49,107 bases of DNA from a virus: IMG/VR virus record IMGVR_UViG_3300031227_000079, positions 1 to 49,107 of that record; one strand, given 5' to 3'. The notes beneath the pieces are model-generated. The model was not told the origin of the DNA. It did not search any database and saw only the letters and a program-made list of their open reading frames with translations. A program made the position numbers and the translations under genes. Shown one piece after another: positions 13,777-35,163 of this stretch. How positions within the stretch are numbered: the first letter of the stretch is position 1; every line of letters begins with the position of its first letter.

Positions 13777-14049
13777 ATGGAATCCACTGAAATACTGCGG
13801 GGCCATGCAATCGTCGTTGCCGATCGGGGTTTTGTCTACGTCGGCGATTGCGTTGTGGATAGCAATTGGTGCGTTATCAGCAACGCCCGCAACATTCGCA
13901 AGTGGGGCACGACGAAAGGGCTTGGCGAACTGGCCACGGACGGCCCAACCGACGACACGGTGATTGACGCTGTCGGTACAGTGCGGATTCCCATGCCGGA
14001 TGGCGTTAAGCATCTCATAGACACGGAGGCCGCGAAATGGACCCGCTGA
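13777..14049 (+). CDS. small conserved phage protein
   Basis: An AAGGAGA site lies about eight bases before the ATG. The 90 residues (IVVADRGFVYVGDCVVD, then NARNIRKWGTTKGLGELA) match a small beta protein I recall from recombination-region genes of phages in freshwater and planctomycete datasets. Its function is unknown. Its last four codons overlap the start of the Gly/Tyr-repeat gene. Confidence 0.7.
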   Translation: MESTEILRGHAIVVADRGFVYVGDCVVDSNWCVISNARNIRKWGTTKGLGELATDGPTDDTVIDAVGTVRIPMPDGVKHLIDTEAAKWTR

Positions 14050-14288
14050 CCACACTAGCCGGCTCCGGCTACGGCTACGGCTACGGCGACGGCTACGGCG
14101 ACGGCTACGGCTACGGCTACGGCTACGGCGACGGCTCCGGCTACGGCTACGGCTACGGCGACGGCTCCGGCTACGGCTCCGGCGACGGCTCCGGCTACGG
14201 CTACGGCTCCGGCTACGGCTACGGCGACGGCTCCGGCTACGGCTACGGCTCCGGCTACGGCTACGGCTCCGGCTACGAAGTCAGATAA
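14037..14288 (+). CDS. glycine dipeptide-repeat protein (GY/GD/GS)
   Basis: The ATG lies 13 bases inside the preceding gene. After MDPLTTLA the protein is 36 consecutive dipeptides of Gly plus Tyr, Asp or Ser, then EVR and a stop, 83 residues in all. It has no signal peptide. Such a sequence should be disordered or form a flexible Tyr-rich, possibly phase-separating or adhesive chain. The frame is kept through all 36 units. Function is unknown. Confidence 0.6.
   Translation: MDPLTTLAGSGYGYGYGDGYGDGYGYGYGYGDGSGYGYGYGDGSGYGSGDGSGYGYGSGYGYGDGSGYGYGSGYGYGSGYEVR
14061..14276 (+). repeat. 36-unit hexanucleotide repeat, GGC followed by TAC, GAC or TCC
   Basis: Bases 14061-14276 are exactly 36 tandem hexamers. 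The first three bases are always GGC, the sixth is always C, and only positions four and five vary (TA, GA, TC). Units mix without a strict higher-order period, though blocks such as TCC-TAC-TAC recur. Slippage would alter protein length without changing frame. Confidence 0.9.
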
Positions 14289-20174: not shown

Positions 20175-21572
20175 GTGGGTTTGGCATACGCGGATTTTAT
20201 CGACAGTAAATTACGACTCAAAAAGGCCGCCGGCTTCGATCCTGGAGAGTTCCCGTTAGGCATGCACGACTGGCAAGCCGACGTTGCCCGGTGGGCATGT
20301 CGCGGTGGACGAGTGGCCGCCTTCCTCGATACGGGTCTAGGGAAAACGCTGATACAACTGGCATGGGCCGAGCAGATAGTCAACAAGTTTGGCGACGTGC
20401 TAATCCTCGCTCCACTGGCCGTATCACACCAAACGAGGCGAGAGGCCGAGAAGTTTAACATCGGCGTAGACGTTACGGTGTGCCGCGAACAATCCGACGT
20501 GCGGCCTGGAATCACCATTACCAACTACGAGCGATTGCACAAGTTCGACGTGAGTGGATTCGCTGGAGTGGTGCTCGACGAATCAGGCATACTCAAAGCG
20601 TACACTGGCAAGATCAAGCAAGAGCTATGCCGACTGTTTGCCGACTTCCGTTTTCGCCTCTGCTGTACGGCGACCCCTGCCCCTAATGACCATCTGGAAC
20701 TCGGCAACCACTCGGCCTTCCTTGGAATTCTGCCGTCGAATGAAATGATATCTCGGTGGTTTATCAACGACACGATGCATGCCGGGAATTACAGACTGAA
20801 GCACCATGCGGCCGACGACTTTTGGCGGTGGGTATCATCCTGGGCTGCCTGTGTCACCCATCCGCGTGACCTTGGGTACGAAGATGACCGTTACGATCTG
20901 CCGCCATTGCATCGACACATGCACATTGTATCGGCCGACGACTGCCCGCCTCCACCCGGTTGTTTGTTCCACACCGGCAATATATCAGCGACAAATATGC
21001 ACGGCGTCAAGCGTGCGACAATTGGAGCACGGGCCGAGGAGGTTGCCAGGATCATCGGTCAACCCGATGGCCGTCCGTGGGTTATATGGTGCGATACCAA
21101 CTACGAGGCCGACGAACTGAAGCGACGGATTCCCGACGCGGTAGAGATCCGTGGCAGCGATCACATGGACGTGAAAGAACAGCGGCTATTGGACTTCGGG
21201 ACTGGCAAAATAGAGCGGCTGATTACAAAGCCAGAGATTGCCGGCCATGGCCTGAACTGGCAACATTGCAACCGGGTAGTATTCGCTGGGCTCAGCTTTT
21301 CTATGGAGCGATTGTACCAGGCTATTCGCCGCTGCTGGCGGTTCGGGCAAACCCTCCCCGTAGAGTGTCACATGGTATCGACCGACGCGGAGGGTCAGAT
21401 AATCAAGACGCTCGAAACAAAGGAACGTGCTTTCGGGGAAATGCAAGAGGCGTTATGCGATGCGATCCATGACCACCAACTAGAAAGCGTCTACGGCCAA
21501 ACGGAACTACGGCCGACCGCTCGACACCAATCAACGGAGATACCGGAATGGCTACAGTCACAAGCAAATTAG
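20175..21572 (+). CDS. SF2 DNA helicase
   Basis: The GTG start follows the symporter fragment by one base. The 465-residue protein has Walker A-like DTGLGKT (52-58), motif II DESG (135-138, a phage variant of DEAD/DEAH), motif III TATPAP (165-170), and motif VI-like YQAIRRCWRFGQ near residue 390. It ends by overlapping the methyltransferase start by 25 bases, a pairing seen in other phages. It probably unwinds or remodels DNA in replication or recombination. Confidence 0.8.
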   Translation: MGLAYADFIDSKLRLKKAAGFDPGEFPLGMHDWQADVARWACRGGRVAAFLDTGLGKTLIQLAWAEQIVNKFGDVLILAPLAVSHQTRREAEKFNIGVDVTVCREQSDVRPGITITNYERLHKFDVSGFAGVVLDESGILKAYTGKIKQELCRLFADFRFRLCCTATPAPNDHLELGNHSAFLGILPSNEMISRWFINDTMHAGNYRLKHHAADDFWRWVSSWAACVTHPRDLGYEDDRYDLPPLHRHMHIVSADDCPPPPGCLFHTGNISATNMHGVKRATIGARAEEVARIIGQPDGRPWVIWCDTNYEADELKRRIPDAVEIRGSDHMDVKEQRLLDFGTGKIERLITKPEIAGHGLNWQHCNRVVFAGLSFSMERLYQAIRRCWRFGQTLPVECHMVSTDAEGQIIKTLETKERAFGEMQEALCDAIHDHQLESVYGQTELRPTARHQSTEIPEWLQSQAN

Positions 21573-22552
21573 ACGCGAAGGTTGGTGGGCAGGAACGCGG
21601 CGAAGGGTGGGCGATGTATCAGGCAGATTGTTGCGAGGCAATCAAGTCGCTGCCCGATAGCTCGATTCACTTGACGATGTACTCACCGCCCTTCGCCGGC
21701 CTGTACATCTACAGCGACCACGCGGCGGACATGGGGAACTCGGCCGACAACGAGGAGTTTATGCGGCACTACGAATACCTCGTTCCTGAGTTGCTTCGGG
21801 TCACCGTTCCCGGCCGTTTGTGCGTCGTCCACTGTAAGGACTTGCCGACCTACTACAACCGCGACGGGGCCGCCGGCCTATGGGACTTGCCGGGAGAGCT
21901 TATCCGGCTCCATGTTGCGGCCGGCTGGTCCTATCATAGCCGCGTGACGATTTGGAAGTGTCCAGTTACGGAGCGGGAACGCACGAATAATAACGGACTA
22001 CTCCATAAGACCGTACTCCGCGACCGCTCGCAGTGCCGCCAGGGAATGGCTGATTATCTCTTGGTGTTTCGCAAGACCCCCAATGGCACGCTGATGAGCG
22101 ACGAACCACTGAAGAGTACGGACGGCCTGACGGGCTACGTCGGCGAGACTGACCCTCGCGACCACGACGAACACCCGTCTCCATTCGCCCGGAAATCCAA
22201 CACGAGGCAAATGCAATCAATCCGAATCTGGCAACGGTACGCGGAACCAGTTTGGTGGGACATCAACCAGACGCGAGTGTTGAACTACAAACAGGCTCGC
22301 GACGGCAAGGATGAAAAGCATATCTGTCCGCTACAACTCGACGTTATCGACAGGGCTATACAGCTCTGGTCCGATCCGGGCGAAGTGGTTTTGTCACCGT
22401 TTGCGGGGATCGGTAGCGAGGGATACGGGGCAGTGTCGATGGGGCGGAAGTTCGTCGGCATCGAGTTGAAAGAGGGCTACTACAATACAGCCATCGGACA
22501 CCTACGCAAAGCAGAGTATGACTTGGTCCAGAAAGACCGAAGGTTATTCTAG
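21548..22552 (+). CDS. site-specific DNA methyltransferase (SPPF type)
   Basis: The 334-residue protein has catalytic motif IV SPPF (46-49), typical of N4-cytosine and some N6-adenine enzymes, and the AdoMet motif FAGIGSEGYGA near residue 285, giving the permuted IV-then-I order of the beta class. No restriction enzyme lies beside it, so it is probably an orphan that protects phage DNA or regulates. Its stop TAG shares a base with the GTG of the second symporter part. Confidence 0.8.
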   Translation: MATVTSKLDAKVGGQERGEGWAMYQADCCEAIKSLPDSSIHLTMYSPPFAGLYIYSDHAADMGNSADNEEFMRHYEYLVPELLRVTVPGRLCVVHCKDLPTYYNRDGAAGLWDLPGELIRLHVAAGWSYHSRVTIWKCPVTERERTNNNGLLHKTVLRDRSQCRQGMADYLLVFRKTPNGTLMSDEPLKSTDGLTGYVGETDPRDHDEHPSPFARKSNTRQMQSIRIWQRYAEPVWWDINQTRVLNYKQARDGKDEKHICPLQLDVIDRAIQLWSDPGEVVLSPFAGIGSEGYGAVSMGRKFVGIELKEGYYNTAIGHLRKAEYDLVQKDRRLF

Positions 22553-24500: not shown

Positions 24501-24671
24501 ATCCAAGTACATGACATGGACGATGCCTTTGATGCAATCCGTGACCTGATTGCTGACATAGAAATTGACCGCGATACATTCAAGGAGCAGGCCGAAAACC
24601 TAGCGAGCCAACTAAAGGAAGCTGACGAACTCGTTGTGGAATTAGAGCGGAGCATTTTGGAACTAACATGA
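24498..24671 (+). CDS. very small coiled-coil protein
   Basis: The ATG follows GGGGAGAAGACG. The 57 residues (DAFDAIRDLIADIEIDRDTF, then LASQLKEADELVVELERSIL) are almost entirely amphipathic helix with heptads. Its stop overlaps the start of the DUF1559 gene (ATGATGA). Role unknown. Confidence 0.6.
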   Translation: MIQVHDMDDAFDAIRDLIADIEIDRDTFKEQAENLASQLKEADELVVELERSILELT

Positions 24672-25573
24672 TGAAACGCGCCTTCACACTTGTTGAGCTA
24701 CTGGTGGTCATCACGATCATCGGCATCCTGATTGCCCTACTTCTCCCTGCCGTCCAAGCGGCCCGCGAGGCGGCGCGTCGTATCAGTTGCACCAACAACC
24801 TGAAGCAACTCGGTCTGGCCCTCCACAACTACCACGCGGCCCTTGGTAGCTTCCCGTGTGGAGCTGCGGTGGGCTACCTGACAACCAGCAGCAGCGGCAC
24901 GCCCACCGGAACCCGCGAGGGATGGCGGGTGTACGTGCTGCCTTACATCGAGCAAGGGAATGTACATGACCAGTTTGATACCGAGGCGAGCATTTGTGAC
25001 GGGGTTGATTGCGAGTTGTCCGCTCTTGAGTTGGCTGTTTGGACGTGCCCGAGCGACGGAAAGCAGCCGTTCGATCCGCACATGCGAGATACCTACCAGT
25101 GGCGAACCACCAACTACGTGGGTGTGGCTGGGGCAAAGTCCGGACCGTCCCTCGAAAGCAGACATTGCGGAAATTATAGGACAGACGGAATCCTCTTTCC
25201 ATTATCAGGAGTACGAATTGCAGACATCCGAGACGGGACAAGCAATGCCATTGCTGTGGGGGAACAAGTCAACTGGCTGCGAGTCTGGACCGCCGGAGCT
25301 TACACCACACAAGTCACCAAGCCATGGCACCACGTCTGCGTGTTCTCTTCCAAGAACGTGACGTGGCCAATCAACACCGACCCCGAAGAACGCAACTACG
25401 ACCACGCTCGACCAGGGCAGAAGTGTCTGTTCAATGACATCTTCTTTTCGTCCCACCATCCCGGCGGGTGTAGTTTCGTCTGGGCTGATGGGTCGGTGAG
25501 GTTTGCGAGTGAGACGATTGAGATGGAAGTGTTCAAGGGGATAGCAACCCGTGACGGGGGAGAGGTGCAATGA
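24668..25573 (+). CDS. DUF1559 protein with type IV prepilin-like N-terminus
   Basis: The 301-residue protein has a prepilin methylation and cleavage motif (FTLVELLVVITIIGILIALL, residues 6-25), then the DUF1559 opening (AREAARRISCTNNLKQLGLA, then HNYHAALGSFP), LPYIEQGN and CPSDGK in the middle, and the terminal HHPGGCSFVWADGS (H-x9-DG) motif. It looks complete. The family is expanded in Planctomycetes, Verrucomicrobia and Lentisphaerae and is exported as pseudopilin-like surface proteins. Its presence in a phage operon, coupled by overlaps on both sides, indicates cargo from the host. Confidence 0.9.
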   Translation: MMKRAFTLVELLVVITIIGILIALLLPAVQAAREAARRISCTNNLKQLGLALHNYHAALGSFPCGAAVGYLTTSSSGTPTGTREGWRVYVLPYIEQGNVHDQFDTEASICDGVDCELSALELAVWTCPSDGKQPFDPHMRDTYQWRTTNYVGVAGAKSGPSLESRHCGNYRTDGILFPLSGVRIADIRDGTSNAIAVGEQVNWLRVWTAGAYTTQVTKPWHHVCVFSSKNVTWPINTDPEERNYDHARPGQKCLFNDIFFSSHHPGGCSFVWADGSVRFASETIEMEVFKGIATRDGGEVQ

Positions 25574-25905
25574 GCGGACTTTCGATGATGCTTGCCATTA
25601 GCCGCCAAGATTGCGGGCAACTACGGGCCAAAGCTGACGGCCGAGCCGCAACCATCCGGCGGCTGGTGGTGGAGGTGGAGCGGTTGGAAGCGGCCTTCGC
25701 TCGCTTACCTCGCGGTGACGACATCGACCTAGCCATGCGTGCTAATAATATGGGTGGCCTCGAATTCAAGGAAGACTATTGTGAGTGTGATTCGTCTGTA
25801 GGGATGTGCCCCTGTCCATATTGTGCAATTGATAGCGTGCTGCGAAGACTATGGAGAACAACTAACCCAGAAGCCGCCGACGCGGCGAAAGGAGCGGGTG
25901 AATGA
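25570..25905 (+). CDS. hypothetical small protein with Cys cluster
   Basis: The ATGA overlap fixes the start. The 111 residues have a helical start (ATIRRLVVEVERLEAAFARL) and a Cys cluster (CECDSSVGMCPCPYC, about residues 71-85) that may bind zinc. The last residues (EAADAAKGAGE) come from a 23-base sequence repeated at the end of the gene at 28782-29168. Function unknown. Confidence 0.65.
   Translation: MSGLSMMLAISRQDCGQLRAKADGRAATIRRLVVEVERLEAAFARLPRGDDIDLAMRANNMGGLEFKEDYCECDSSVGMCPCPYCAIDSVLRRLWRTTNPEAADAAKGAGE
25871..25893 (+). repeat. junction repeat B, copy 1
   Basis: The 23 bases from AAGCCGCCGAC to GCGAAAGGA are identical to 29134-29156. Both copies encode the same protein ending and provide an AAAGGA ribosome site for the next overlapping gene. 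The two host genes are otherwise unrelated. Confidence 0.85.
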
Positions 25906-26069
25906 AGGTGCTGTTTTTTTTAGTTGGTATATTGATGGCCGTGCCGCCCTATGGTCGGCTGTTGAGGCCGTACGGCCTCGCAATACAAGCAATTGGGATT
26001 TCCGTACAGGTCACTGGGCTTGTGTTCATGGTTCCGCTTGCCATCAGAATATTAAAGGAGATATTATGA
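25902..26069 (+). CDS. very small membrane protein
   Basis: This 55-residue frame joins its neighbours by ATGA overlaps on both sides. It has two hydrophobic segments (KVLFFLVGILMAV and GISVQVTGLVFMVPLAI) around a short basic loop. It could be a holin-like, antiholin or accessory membrane peptide. A run of eight T (25914-25921) near its start could cause slippage. It precedes the anchored sialidase and may act with it. Confidence 0.6.
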   Translation: MKVLFFLVGILMAVPPYGRLLRPYGLAIQAIGISVQVTGLVFMVPLAIRILKEIL

Positions 26070-27310
26070 CAGAATTACTCAAATGGTTATTCGTCATCAC
26101 CCTCGCCCTCGTGGTCTGCCTTATAATCCAGCGCTACACGCGAGCGGCCACACCCCTACCGTACACCCTCGTCGCATCACACGGACCCGGTGGTCCCTAC
26201 TGTGCCTTCCCTGGTGCGTGTCGCTTGCCCGATGGACGAATCATAGTCGTCTACTATTCGGGCGTGGAGAGCGGCCACGTCACCCGTACTGACCAACGCA
26301 AGGGCGGTGGGTGTATCGCCTACGTGACGAGTAGCGACGAGGCGAGGACGTGGAGCGAGCCTGCCCTCTTGCTCGACACGGACGAGGATGACCGCGACCC
26401 CGACATATCAGTGTTGAAAGATGGGCGAATCATCTTGACATACTTCCGCCTCATCACCGTGCCGAAGATGGCGGGGGATGGGGTGTATTGTGCGGAGATT
26501 GTGGGTAGTGGCGAGAGCCGTCAAGAGGTTTTGACAGACGGTGGGGGCCATCGGAAGGGCTATGGAGCAGGCGGGACTACAATACCGTCTGGCCAGACCG
26601 AGCCGGGTTCACTCCGGCCTACCCTAATTCGCAAGCTTCAACACGACGCCGGCTGTTCCGCACCCATGCGAGACTACGGCGACGGCCACCTGCTCCTCGG
26701 CTCGTACCACTTTGACCAGCCCTACGTGATACGCTCCACGGACAACGGGAAGACGTGGCAGGTGTTCGCGATACCGAATGGCGGCAAGCACCTGGATGCG
26801 GAGACGGACACGATACGCCTCGGTATTGGTGACCATCGCTATGGCCTCGGGGGTGCAACATACTTTGGCGGTATGCCTTACTATGCTGTGATGCGTGGCC
26901 GCAAATGTAACGGACATTTTTCATACAGCCCCGATGGAAAGAACTGGGCGACTGCGAAGGACATCGGGTTCCCGTTGCATTGTCCAGCGTTGCATAGGGT
27001 GGAGGTGGTGCCGGTAGTTCAAACGGTAGAACCCATTAAACCGGAGGCTGCTGGTTCGAGTCCAGCCCGGCCCACCTCCGCCATTCTTCTCGCCCACCGC
27101 GTCCCCGCCACCTGCTTCCACTACTCACTCGACGAGTGCAAGACGTGGCAGGGGCCGGTCGCGGTGGATGCGTGTGGCGGTGCGTATCCCGCGTTCGTGA
27201 CGCTGAAGGATGGGAGTGTGATGATCGTGTACTACACCGAGGGACCGACGAGCGACGTGAGGTGCCGCCGGTTCCGTATCTCTGACAAAGGAGTTGAGTT
27301 CGATGGCTAA
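26066..27310 (+). CDS. BNR/Asp-box sialidase, membrane-anchored, with tRNA-like insertion
   Basis: An AAAGGAG site precedes the ATG. The 414-residue protein begins with a signal anchor (LLKWLFVITLALVVCLII). It then has Asp boxes SDEARTW (90-96) and STDNGKTW (224-231) plus degenerate YSPDGKNW and YSLDECKTW. LPDGRIIVVYYSG and ILTYFRL fit exo-sialidase propellers of planctomycetes. Residues about 313-339 (including EPIKPEAAGSSPARPTS) are foreign to the family and come from a tRNA-like sequence; a second unusual insert lies about 150-190. The enzyme would remove terminal sialic acids if active. Confidence 0.75.
   Translation: MTELLKWLFVITLALVVCLIIQRYTRAATPLPYTLVASHGPGGPYCAFPGACRLPDGRIIVVYYSGVESGHVTRTDQRKGGGCIAYVTSSDEARTWSEPALLLDTDEDDRDPDISVLKDGRIILTYFRLITVPKMAGDGVYCAEIVGSGESRQEVLTDGGGHRKGYGAGGTTIPSGQTEPGSLRPTLIRKLQHDAGCSAPMRDYGDGHLLLGSYHFDQPYVIRSTDNGKTWQVFAIPNGGKHLDAETDTIRLGIGDHRYGLGGATYFGGMPYYAVMRGRKCNGHFSYSPDGKNWATAKDIGFPLHCPALHRVEVVPVVQTVEPIKPEAAGSSPARPTSAILLAHRVPATCFHYSLDECKTWQGPVAVDACGGAYPAFVTLKDGSVMIVYYTEGPTSDVRCRRFRISDKGVEFDG
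27001..27079 (+). pseudogene. tRNA-like sequence embedded in frame in the sialidase gene
   Basis: GTGCCGG (27008-27014) pairs with CCGGCCC (27067-27073), one mismatch. GTTC-loop-GAAC (27017-27032) is a normal D arm. GCTGG-TTCGAGT-CCAGC (27050-27066) is a perfect T arm. Only 17 bases lie between these arms, too few for an anticodon arm and variable loop; ACCGG is left without its partner, so no anticodon can be assigned. GGAGGTGG (27001-27008) also pairs with CCACCTCC (27072-27079), making a long closing stem. The insertion keeps the protein frame open. Confidence 0.6.
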
Positions 27311-28039: not shown

Positions 28040-28059
28040 TTCCATTGGGAGGTAGAGTG

Positions 28060-28785
28060 ATGAAGTCCATTGCAATGTGTCTGTGCGTCCTGTTCGCCGC
28101 CTCCGTATCCCAAGCCGGCATCATCCGTGGCCTCGAACACTACGGCACCACGCCACCAAGTCAAGAGGGATGGGTACTGGCCTCCGGTGCTCCGTCTTCC
28201 GCCCACCCGTATGTATGCGGTGACGGCACCGAGACGTGGCAAATGACCATGCCGAGCGGGTACTACCGCTTGGAGCCGGCCGACTACTCTGACCTGAACT
28301 TCGATGTTGACTGGTCCCTCGACTTCAACATGAGGTATCAGTGGGGGAGCCGTGGCAAGTTCAGGGCCACCGTACTGGACGGTGAGGCGGGCCATTCATT
28401 CACCTGGGACGACGCCGGTAGCTACTACTACATACCCGGTGCGGGCGACACGCTGATACCAGGAAGCGACGTGCCCCTCTTCCACAATACGTTCCACGAC
28501 TATGGCATGGCGTTTGACGAGGCCACGGGAGACATGACCTATTCAATGGATGGCGTCGAGTTTGATGTGCTCGCCCGTGACGAGCAGAACCCAACCACGG
28601 CCACGATGTTCTACTGGGGATGCAACGCGGGTAGTGGATCGGGCTCCGCACTCTGGCATGAACTGACGTATGAATACGCACCCGAGCCATCGACGGCAAT
28701 GCTGATGGTGATGGGGTTGGTCGGGGTGTGTGGATGGAGGAGGCGAAGGCAATTACTCCGCGAAAACAGGAGACCAAAACGATGA
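28060..28785 (+). CDS. PEP-CTERM sorted exported protein
   Basis: I start at the ATG at 28060 after GGGAGGTAGAG; it gives 241 residues with a signal peptide (SIAMCLCVLFAASVSQA). A beta-rich exported domain follows. The end is APEPSTAMLMVMGLVGVCGW then RRRRQ: the PEP motif, membrane helix and Arg cluster of PEP-CTERM proteins, which are processed by host exosortase. The host must carry that system for sorting. It is cellular-type cargo in a phage operon, overlapping the next gene by ATGA. Confidence 0.75.
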   Translation: MKSIAMCLCVLFAASVSQAGIIRGLEHYGTTPPSQEGWVLASGAPSSAHPYVCGDGTETWQMTMPSGYYRLEPADYSDLNFDVDWSLDFNMRYQWGSRGKFRATVLDGEAGHSFTWDDAGSYYYIPGAGDTLIPGSDVPLFHNTFHDYGMAFDEATGDMTYSMDGVEFDVLARDEQNPTTATMFYWGCNAGSGSGSALWHELTYEYAPEPSTAMLMVMGLVGVCGWRRRRQLLRENRRPKR

Positions 28786-30396: not shown

Positions 30397-31998
30397 ATGA
30401 CACGGACAGCCCCCGCCTCGTCGGCACCCTCCGAACTACTCGACCGCACCCCCCCGCATGACCTCAAGGCCGAGCAGGGTGTTCTCGGCTCGATTATGCT
30501 CAAATCCGACGTGCTCGATGAGGTGGTTAGTATCGTCCAAGAGGCCGATTTCTATTCATCGTCCCACCGTGCCCTCTACGCTCACCTGGTCGGCCTCCAC
30601 TACTCGGGCTGGACCGGCGACGCCACCATGCTCGCCGATTGGCTACGTAACAGCGAAGACGCTGAAGCCATCCGAGCCGGCTCAAGCATAGAACACACCA
30701 TCGTCACCCTATGCCGATCCGTGGGTTCTCCGGCCTTCGCTACCAAGTACGCTAAAATCGTCGCACGAGAGTCCCGTAAGCGACGATTGATCTCCGCTCA
30801 TGCCGAGGCCCTGCGGGCGACGTGGGAGCCAGGGGCAGACGTGGGCGAGCTAGCAAGCGGATTCAGGGCGACCCTAGACAGTATTACCACCACCGACGAG
30901 TCGGGCCGTATCCAATGGCTGACCAGCGACGAACTCGACAAGGGCGACTTCAAGATCGAGTATCTGATCGACGGCGTGCTCGCCCGCCATCAGCCATGCG
31001 TGGTCGCCGGCCCGAGCAAAGCCCTCAAGACCAGCCTGGTGATCGATCTGGCCGTCTCCCTGGTCGCCGGCGTTCCATTCCTGGGCAAGTTCACGGTCCC
31101 AGCGAAACGCCGCGTCGGTGTCGTCACGGGCGAATCAGGCATGGCCAGCATACAGAACTGTGTCCGCCGCGTCATCGCGAGCAAGTTTGTCTTCGACCCC
31201 AGCGCCTTCGACGGCCTATTCTGGTCCGAGGACGTGCCCAATTTTAGCAACGGGCTAGACCTCCAGTGTATACGCCAATCAATTCAAAAACACTCATTAG
31301 ACGTGCTGATTATAGACCCGCTGTACCAGGCATTACCGCAAGCCGACGCTGCCAGCATACTCAAAATGGGTGAGCTATTGCGAGCGGCCAACGACGTATG
31401 TCGTGCCACTGGATGCACCTTGGTTCTCATTCACCACACGGTCAAGAGACCCGGCTATGGCACCGCTCGACTCCCAGGAGACCCGCTCCAGCGTGAAGAT
31501 ATTCACGGGGCCGGTATCGGTGAATGGATGCGGCAATGGGTGTTATTGAACAGACGAGAGGACTGGGAACCACATACACCTCACCTCCTCAACCTAGTAG
31601 TCGGCGGCTCCGCGGGGCATGCCGGCCGATGGTGCCTCGATGTAGATGAGGGTGAGTTCAGCATCGGGCGATTTGGGGGATTAGAGAAATGGGCCGTTAC
31701 GGTTGACGATCCGGGCGAATCCCGCTCGAAGGCCGACGATCTCGCCCAAGAGGCCAGGAGGCAATCTACCCAAGAGAGGGTGGAAGAGGACTCAAGATCA
31801 ATCCTAGCCATCGCAGCCAAGCATCCAGCCGGCGAAACCAAACGCTACTATCGCGACGCCACCAGGGGCGGCAAGCGGTTCGATGACGCCTGGTCCTCCC
31901 TCGTAGAGAGCGGTGGCCTAATCCCATCGACCATCATCAAGGGCAACAAACAGTCCATTCAAGCATGGAAAATCGATGATAATCAAGAGCAGTGGTAA
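30397..31998 (+). CDS. replicative DNA helicase, DnaB N-domain plus RepA-like ATPase
   Basis: The 533-residue protein starts with a DnaB-type amino domain (DLKAEQGVLGSIMLKSDVLD, about 22-41). An AAA_25/RepA-like ATPase follows, with Walker A GPSKALKTS (205-213), GVVTGESGMA and Walker B IIDPLYQ (305-311), and LIHHTVK as a probable sensor. A helical winged-type end follows. It should load or unwind at the phage origin. The first copy of the 10-base origin-like repeat spans its stop codon. Confidence 0.8.
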   Translation: MTRTAPASSAPSELLDRTPPHDLKAEQGVLGSIMLKSDVLDEVVSIVQEADFYSSSHRALYAHLVGLHYSGWTGDATMLADWLRNSEDAEAIRAGSSIEHTIVTLCRSVGSPAFATKYAKIVARESRKRRLISAHAEALRATWEPGADVGELASGFRATLDSITTTDESGRIQWLTSDELDKGDFKIEYLIDGVLARHQPCVVAGPSKALKTSLVIDLAVSLVAGVPFLGKFTVPAKRRVGVVTGESGMASIQNCVRRVIASKFVFDPSAFDGLFWSEDVPNFSNGLDLQCIRQSIQKHSLDVLIIDPLYQALPQADAASILKMGELLRAANDVCRATGCTLVLIHHTVKRPGYGTARLPGDPLQREDIHGAGIGEWMRQWVLLNRREDWEPHTPHLLNLVVGGSAGHAGRWCLDVDEGEFSIGRFGGLEKWAVTVDDPGESRSKADDLAQEARRQSTQERVEEDSRSILAIAAKHPAGETKRYYRDATRGGKRFDDAWSSLVESGGLIPSTIIKGNKQSIQAWKIDDNQEQW

Positions 31999-32367
31999 GC
32001 AGTGGTAAGCAGTGGTAAGGAGCAGTGGTAAGCGTCTCCCTTGGGTGTGGTAAGGAGCAGTGGTAAGCACCCGGTTATATATACCTTTAGGTATATACCG
32101 GGAATTACCACTACTCCGACACCCATCACCGGCTTCCCATCACTCGAAAAAATAAGGGGTTTGCGTCATGGCCTTACCACTGCTCACCCTCAACTCAACG
32201 CTTACCACTGCAAACCACTGCAACCAACCAACCACTGCAAACAACATACATACCAGCACCAAACGGCCAATAGCAGTGGTAAGAAATGACATTTACCACT
32301 GCAACTATTCAGCCCCGTTCCAACCACCATCATCGACAGAACCAAGCCGGATCGGTAGCAGTGGTAA
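31989..32367. repeat. iteron cluster GCAGTGGTAA, candidate replication origin
   Basis: Seven exact GCAGTGGTAA copies start at 31989, 31999, 32009, 32022, 32057, 32273 and 32358. Three exact reverse copies (TTACCACTGC) start at 32174, 32202 and 32293. Diverged or partial copies lie at about 32044, 32105, 32213 and 32231. The cluster directly follows the replicative helicase gene, is free of convincing genes and contains an AT-rich palindrome. This fits iterons of a replication origin or a dense operator array. Confidence 0.7.
32071..32101. promoter_or_regulatory. AT-rich palindrome within the iteron cluster
   Basis: CCGGT-TAT-ATATACC (32071-32085) and GGTATATACCGG (32090-32101) form a 12-base-pair stem with a three-base bulge and a TTTA loop. 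Its inner part is AT-rich. It lies between the forward-oriented and the mixed-orientation iterons, where an unwinding element or hairpin origin would be expected. Confidence 0.55.
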
Positions 32368-32730
32368 GGAATGGGAAAACGGAATCGGCGAGAGAGAGGA
32401 CGTGAACATGGTATTGAGACTCAGTATCAACTATGCCAACTCCAATCTTGGCTGCCGAAACCCCGTGTCGAAAATACCGACACATGCTTGGTCATTTGTG
32501 CAAGTATACTGCTGGCGTGAAGATGGGCAAGCTGGGAAGACGTCAGTCTAGCTCGAATACGACGAGGCAAGATGGGCAACCGACACCCCACCACACCACA
32601 CGGAATCAGTATCGCTTCTCCCCAATAGCAATACCAAACGCCTGCTACCCCGCCCCCGGTCAATCACAATGGGGGGGTGGCTGAACTGGTGAGGGTACCT
32701 CACAAATACTCCGGAAAATTCCTCTAACCG
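32368..32730 (+). other. region without a convincing gene
   Basis: Several short frames cross this stretch, including 32408-32551 and 32433-32684, but none has a good ribosome site and protein-like composition together. It contains the palindrome at 32689-32703. With the iteron cluster it makes the largest non-coding block in the window, about 730 bases. Confidence 0.5.
32689..32703. promoter_or_regulatory. perfect inverted repeat, operator candidate
   Basis: GTGAGG-GTA-CCTCAC is a perfect six-base inverted repeat about 30 bases before the ATG at 32731. Size and place fit a dimeric repressor site. No regulator is assigned to it. Confidence 0.4.
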
Positions 32731-34468: not shown

Positions 34469-34575
34469 TTCCAAGGCGACCCGTGGGAATCTGGAAACCA
34501 CGATAAGCCCTGCCACCCTCGGCACGCTGGAGAGGGTGGCCGATGCTTACCGTTCAACCAAACGAGGAAACCAAC

Positions 34576-35163
34576 ATGAGCAACGCTGGCATCAAGCTAC
34601 CACCCGAGATACTCACGACTTCCGAGGTTCGTTCTCTTCTCGGGGCGTGTGGATCGTCGTGGAGTGAGCAGCGGAACCGGACACTTCTGATTGTCTTGTA
34701 CCGTGGCGGGCTTCGCACGTCAGAGGCTCTCGACCTTTGTCCGAAGGACGTTGACCTGGACGGCGGCCGGCTTCATGTGTTGCACGGGAAGGGCGACAAG
34801 TCGCGGACGGTGGGCATTGATCCATGGGCGGTGGGCGAGTTGCGGGCGTGGCTGGTGACCAGGGCCGAGAAGGTGCCGAACGGCGGCCCGGTGTTCTGTT
34901 CGCTTCAGGGGACGAGGATGCTTCCGGTCTACGTGCGGGCCACGGTCAAGCGGCTGGCCCGTATGTGTGACATCGAAAAGCGGGTGCATCCCCATGCGTT
35001 TCGGCACACGATGGCGTGTGAATTGCGAAGGGAAGGTGTTGACATCGGGGTTATCAGTCGTCAACTTGGGCATAGCTCGATTGCGACGACGGCCCAGTAT
35101 TTGGCCCATATCTGTCCGCAGGAGGTGGTGGACACGATGCAGAAAAGGGAGTGGAAGCCATGA
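34576..35163 (+). CDS. tyrosine recombinase / integrase, catalytic domain only
   Basis: The ATG at 34576 follows a GAGGAAA site. The 195 residues hold the whole catalytic set: Arg47 (GLRTSEAL), Lys72 or Lys75 (GKGDKSRT), HAFRH with Arg143, LGHSSIATT with His166, and nucleophile Tyr175. The usual amino-terminal core-binding domain is missing, so this is a minimal enzyme like some resolvases and small integrases. It may integrate the phage or resolve multimers. No attachment site was identified. Confidence 0.8.
   Translation: MSNAGIKLPPEILTTSEVRSLLGACGSSWSEQRNRTLLIVLYRGGLRTSEALDLCPKDVDLDGGRLHVLHGKGDKSRTVGIDPWAVGELRAWLVTRAEKVPNGGPVFCSLQGTRMLPVYVRATVKRLARMCDIEKRVHPHAFRHTMACELRREGVDIGVISRQLGHSSIATTAQYLAHICPQEVVDTMQKREWKP

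Follow-up and report, generated by a model that had tools for sequence, protein, structure and literature searches.

A dense cluster of short repeats directly after a helicase gene raises the question of whether the two form a replication origin and its initiator, and whether such a pair recurs elsewhere. The cluster lies at 31989-32367 of IMG/VR virus record IMGVR_UViG_3300031227_000079, which is linear, 49,107 bp long, and without end repeats; the whole record is called the window below. Phage functions encoded in it are a terminase large subunit (36183) and a portal protein (43812). We conclude that 31989-32367 is very probably the replication origin, with the adjacent helicase as its initiator. 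The evidence computed here comprises the iteron array, the anatomy conserved 3′ of homologous helicases, a recurring core, a predicted winged helix, and covariation between repeat word and winged helix.

The repeat unit, GCAGTGGTAA, has ten exact copies within 379 bp, seven forward (+ strand, starting at 31989, 31999, 32009, 32022, 32057, 32273, and 32358) and three reverse (- strand, at 32174, 32202, and 32293). Counting matches with up to one mismatch gives 15 in the window vs 2.25 expected, and 0 of 100 shuffles reached 15. These counts bear out the initial annotation, which had judged the ten copies to be beyond chance. It had also named genome-wide scatter of the motif as evidence against an origin; this was looked for, and no exact copy was found outside the array in the 49,107 bases (~ 0.1 expected). 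As had been described, the first three iterons run head to tail on the + strand in steps of exactly 10 bp (31989-32018), and the first contains the helicase stop codon (31996-31998). Next on the + strand are an exact copy at 32022-32031, a diverged copy, GGTGTGGTAA, at 32044-32053, and an exact copy at 32057-32066, the left partner of a converging pair around the core. The right partner (one mismatch) is on the - strand at 32105-32114, where it is followed by exact copies at 32174-32183 and 32202-32211 and diverged copies at 32212-32221 and 32229-32238. Farther out, an exact + strand copy (32273-32282) forms a 10-bp inverted repeat with an exact - strand copy (32293-32302), and the last copy, exact and on the + strand, is at 32358-32367. 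In overall order, 31989-32066 holds the forward set (five copies plus a diverged one), the palindrome comes next, 32105-32238 holds the reverse set, and 32273-32367 is an outer group with both orientations.

Between the converging iterons lies a 33-bp AT-rich palindromic core, CCCGGTTATATATACCTTTAGGTATATACCGGG (32070-32102), which contains TATATATA and is centered on CCTTTAGG (32084-32091). The palindrome and its setting, non-coding DNA adjacent to the helicase, agree with the earlier description: 31999-32730 holds no plausible gene, and the ORF at 32168-32551 passes through the repeats. Folded as single-stranded DNA, 32057-32114 gives one hairpin made of the converging iterons and the palindrome (-16.4 kcal/mol, z -6.6). 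Both a one-site cluster of short repeats, nearly identical and missing from the rest of the record, and an AT-rich element next to it are expected of an iteron-type origin. The box cluster of a DnaA-dependent origin was not found; no TTATCCACA with up to one mismatch occurs between 29.7 and 48.9 kb. Rfam matches at the array were all below the gathering score, and promoter-like sites there numbered 1 vs 1.1 expected by chance. Reading the palindrome as a terminator was rejected, with none found at the array. When the pair pattern of GCAGTGGTAA was searched for in viral contigs, mainly protein-coding repeats were returned. One contig, IMGVR_UViG_3300025728_000009 (91,285 bp), has four tandem GCAGTGGTAA copies at both ends (L005:1-47, L037:12041-12160); these are probably the overlap of a circular contig, in a context that is unrelated as far as seen.

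GC skew, which the initial annotation had proposed as a check, speaks neither for nor against the origin. At four-fold sites it flips locally at the array, from -0.20 (28-32 kb) to +0.21 (32-36 kb), and the arm means are equal. No genome-wide switch was observed at the array in the window, nor consistently in four related phage genomes.

The candidate initiator is a 533-aa helicase encoded on the + strand at 30397-31998, with Pfam matches to DnaB (2.6e-18) and AAA_25 (2.2e-23). Its domains are DnaB_N (residues 19-123), an AAA_25/RecA-like core (177-351), and a C-terminal predicted winged helix. As Pfam reported AAA_25 and DnaB only and the DnaB_C helicase domain is absent, the protein does not qualify as a replicative DnaB. 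An AlphaFold model of its last 89 residues (445-533) has the helix-helix-beta hairpin arrangement of a winged helix, with a mean pLDDT of 82. Foldseek matches of this model were mostly winged-helix proteins, weak and none below E 0.001. The predicted winged-helix part itself, about residues 482-526 (31840-31974, + strand), is the proposed iteron-binding domain.

Relatives were sought by several routes. Single-protein searches of IMG/VR with the helicase, terminase, and portal returned none, as did a search of GTDB contigs with the helicase, and INPHARED gave none for the helicase region by DNA or the terminase by protein. A route through the SNF2 helicase reached 58 loci whose helicase matches were distant only, planctomycete genomes reached via DUF1559 carried AAA_25 homologues at 30-43% identity, and a family alignment search found 24 IMG/VR loci with a helicase homologue. 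AAA_25 was present in 22/22 aligned family helicases. At the N-terminus they differ: nine have Prim-Pol, five have DnaB_N, and a few have Toprim or zinc-ribbon primase parts. A C-terminal region is common to most of them. A PDB sequence search with the family profile gave no match.

We then scored the area around each helicase stop for short words that recur on the two strands, taking other segments of the same locus for comparison. The segment at the helicase stop was the most repeat-rich of its locus in 12/18 non-redundant IMG/VR loci (binomial p about 3e-12) and was not ranked first in the other third or so of viral relatives; it ranked first in 10/33 planctomycete genome loci. The median score was 9.2 for viral members vs 4.0 for host dnaB genes of the same genomes (p 0.00015). 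Three of 23 host dnaB controls scored above 9, probably due to dispersed host repeats. Planctomycete chromosomes can carry up to five AAA_25 paralogues each (L259-L268, genomes G415 and G198), some of which have 18-bp in-frame repeats (GTCCTGTCCAAC) in the C-terminal tail.

Homologues in planctomycete genomes, the 24 IMG/VR contigs, and several cultured phages share an anatomy where the helicase gene ends. Bidirectional short repeats, often beginning at the stop codon, follow each other in 9-10 bp steps, and at loci of helicase homologues two converging copies enclose a palindromic core of the CCCTATAGGG/CCTTTAGG type. Repeats occurred on both strands in 42/43 strongly scoring members, and same-strand spacing peaks at 9-10 bp, one helical turn. 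A typical order is that of L295, the closest relative: forward copies at +1, +10, and +23, reverse at 40, forward at 58, the core, and reverse at 88 and 144. Lineages differ in the repeat word (CACTCGCCC in L295, CAGTGGGACA in L275, TGGTGGGAC in L272, ATCGGACCA in L279, GTGCGACAA in L251, ACCTGTTCCC in L291) and keep the core type. The enclosed palindrome contains a run of C, TATA or TTTA, and a run of G, as in CCCCTATAGGGG (L274, L275, and L286), CCCTATATAGGG (L279), CCCTTTAGGGG (L271), and CCTTTAGG in the window. A strict form of the core, CCC(C/T)TATA..GGG, was found in 7/18 viral loci vs 0/1289 control segments, and a looser form in 9/18 vs 0.9%. Inverted repeats whose arms are 10 bp or longer surround the helicase stop in 13/18 viral loci, the window included, vs 7% of control segments. 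Helicase and array also recur together in relatives whose other neighbors differ. This family-wide conservation of the anatomy beside the helicase supports the earlier proposal of a replication origin.

Because the same layout, with its own word, follows related helicases, each helicase probably recognizes its own start site. Similarity of the repeat word shows a significant, though small, correlation with winged-helix identity across 35 members (Mantel p 0.0025, r about 0.2). In partial Mantel tests, word vs winged helix given AAA identity gave p 0.0055, while word vs AAA given winged helix gave p 0.41; these p-values are approximate because membership was decided by score and by an exclusion list drawn up by hand. 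An earlier set of 26 members could not separate the winged helix from the ATPase core, and the 35-member set did. Where winged helices are at least 50% identical, 9/10 pairs share the word at nine or more matching positions. The iteron binder is likely the helicase itself, acting via its C-terminal predicted winged helix, and since word similarity tracks that part and not the ATPase core, the helicase is the likely initiator.

The same layout was observed 3′ of AAA_25/RepA-type genes in cultured phages: Rhizobium phages RHph_X2_25 (GCGTGACA, 14 copies) and RHph_N65 (GCGGAGAT, 12 copies), Roseobacter phage CRP-811 (TTTGTAGT, nine copies), Alteromonas phage XX1924, Salicola phage CGphi29, and Vibrio phages 1.076.O and 1.210.O. 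Several of the cultured phages with an array have CCCTTTAGGG or CCCTATATAGGG cores. In CRP-811, every genomic copy of the repeat word is at the helicase 3′ site. The helicase of 1.210.O is 99.4% identical to that of 1.076.O, and a PAPS-reductase gene is inserted between it and the otherwise intact repeat block, which indicates that the block forms an independent unit. In the proteins with the clearest arrays, the C-termini look winged-helix-like by eye, with a winged-helix profile match that is not significant. No array follows the AAA_25 gene in Pam4, SweatNTears, Lebethron, Tlacuache, P1312, or 1.123.O.

We infer from these features an origin that would work as follows. The C-terminal winged helix of the helicase would bind the 10-bp iterons, and the forward tandem set and the reverse set would each position helicase for self-loading, placing rings around the AT-rich palindromic core at 32070-32102. 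The core would then melt or extrude as a hairpin, allowing the rings to unwind outwards. For priming, DnaB_N may recruit a primase in the window phage; a fused Prim-Pol or Toprim sits at that position in many relatives and may serve instead.

Intergenic arrays of short sites can also be operators, and iteron-binding initiators often autoregulate. A repressor, or the helicase, might therefore control the helicase operon or the genes from 32731 onward through the array, but we consider this improbable: the array is 3′ of the helicase and not at a promoter, with promoter-like sites at the chance level given above, helicase and array stay together amid different neighbors, and the AT-rich palindromic core between converging sets would be left unexplained. 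A plasmid-like partition or incompatibility site (parS or an iteron control locus) beside the real origin appears very improbable. Although plasmid iteron clusters have such roles, and the outliers at 32174-32367 could be a control set, no ParA or ParB was recognized among the window proteins scanned, and the conserved partner is a replicative helicase, primase-fused in many relatives. Least probable of all, to the point of being remote, is a recombination or telomere-resolution site for the tyrosine recombinase at 34543 or for a protelomerase. Multiple tandem copies at one-turn spacing are atypical of such sites, the constant neighbor in relatives is the AAA_25 protein, and only one family locus gave a match to the recombinase, despite the resemblance of inverted arms around a short core and a tyrosine-recombinase-like gene 2.5 kb from the array.

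The remaining alternative keeps the origin and assigns the iterons to another protein, with the helicase only recruited. The initial annotation had named the small HTH protein (30061/30169-30390) as candidate binder, and RSF1010 offers a precedent, with RepC on the iterons and RepA as a separate helicase (PMC4234260). In none of the family loci fetched from planctomycetes and viruses did tblastn (E<=1) match the HTH protein, and the recurring neighbor of the repeats is the helicase, which has its own predicted winged helix, tracked by the repeat word. We therefore regard a separate binder as unlikely and that candidate as disfavored.

An origin served by the helicase encoded next to it has parallels. 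In SaPI/PICI elements, the origin lies directly 3′ of the initiator-helicase gene, two short-iteron sets flank an AT-rich core, and the C-terminal domain of the Rep helicase recognizes the iterons (PMC7581432, PMC6092414). The window shares this plan, with its origin candidate immediately 3′ of the helicase and two iteron sets around an AT-rich core. SaPI Rep is of the DUF927 or D5 type, whereas the window family is RecA-like AAA_25 with DnaB_N, Prim-Pol, or Toprim N-termini; the window helicase is not of the DUF927 or D5/Primase_Cterm type (Pfam AAA_25 and DnaB only). Unlike SaPI/PICI, the family occurs in phages and has a recurring CCCTATAGGG-type core, and the window, which encodes terminase and portal, is not a phage-inducible island. 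The system would work like SaPI/PICI without being a member, since its helicase belongs to another family and terminase and portal are encoded by the phage itself.

Cch2 of SCCmec also binds direct repeats just downstream of its own gene through the helicase C-terminal domain, at a putative origin (PMC7581432). Unlike the window helicase, it is D5-type, with three 5-nt iterons and a separate polymerase/primase. ORF904 of pRN1 combines Prim-Pol, SF3 helicase, and C-terminal winged helix, with a stem-loop origin just 3′ of the gene (PMC4234260). It resembles the window family as a primase-helicase-winged-helix protein with a palindromic origin 3′ of its own gene, and differs in its SF3 helicase and an origin stem-loop without iterons. 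RSF1010 has the RepA helicase, the primase RepB′, the iteron-binding RepC, and short stem-loops at oriV (PMC4234260). Unlike the window, it splits these functions over three polypeptides. Its oriV is not at the helicase gene 3′ end. P4 alpha and lambda O are phage initiators with short iterons of their own, with helicase families and origin positions unlike those of the window; lambda O, whose iterons are located within its gene, is not itself a helicase. P4 alpha unites primase, helicase, and origin binding (PMC4234260).

On balance, we lean toward a widespread class of phage origin. Its AAA_25 primase-helicases (Prim-Pol, Toprim, or DnaB_N fused) would each have a winged helix and an iteron word that match each other and are peculiar to that helicase. 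Needing neither DnaA nor an additional loader, they would load themselves where their own gene ends, around a CCCTATAGGG/CCTTTAGG hairpin core common to the class. Such origins would span phages of Planctomycetota, Rhizobium, Roseobacter, Vibrio, Alteromonas, and Salicola, with the SaPI layout reached on a different helicase. We found no description of an AAA_25 origin family in the literature that our partial search covered. If true, the origins of many AAA_25/RepA-type phages and prophages could be read from sequence at the helicase stop codon, and phages would share, on another helicase, an origin plan that has been described as found only in SaPI/PICI islands. Each helicase-ori pair would also make up a compact replicon, complete in itself and with a recognition word of its own, of use for vectors in planctomycetes and other bacteria for which genetic tools are scarce. 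Direct tests are possible in cultured relatives with 5-14 copies (RHph_X2_25, RHph_N65, CRP-811, CGphi29).

Other genes of the record bear on its host and lifestyle. A DUF1559 protein with an N-methylation (pilin-like) leader (24668-25573) and a PEP-CTERM protein (28045-28785), both typical of planctomycete cells, are here in a phage record; as DUF1559 searches return Planctomycetota, a planctomycete host is likely. A 206-aa tyrosine-recombinase-like protein (34543-35163), read from its translation, suggests a temperate or once temperate phage. The SNF2 helicase and DNA methyltransferase pair (20175-22552) occurs together in nearly all of the 58 IMG/VR loci. A BNR-like protein (25823-27310) is 58% identical over 406 aa to the protein at L271:451-1635, upstream of the helicase there, and the two are much closer than the family helicases are to each other. 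Finally, a short ORF at 14037-14288 encodes Gly-Tyr-Gly-Asp repeats.
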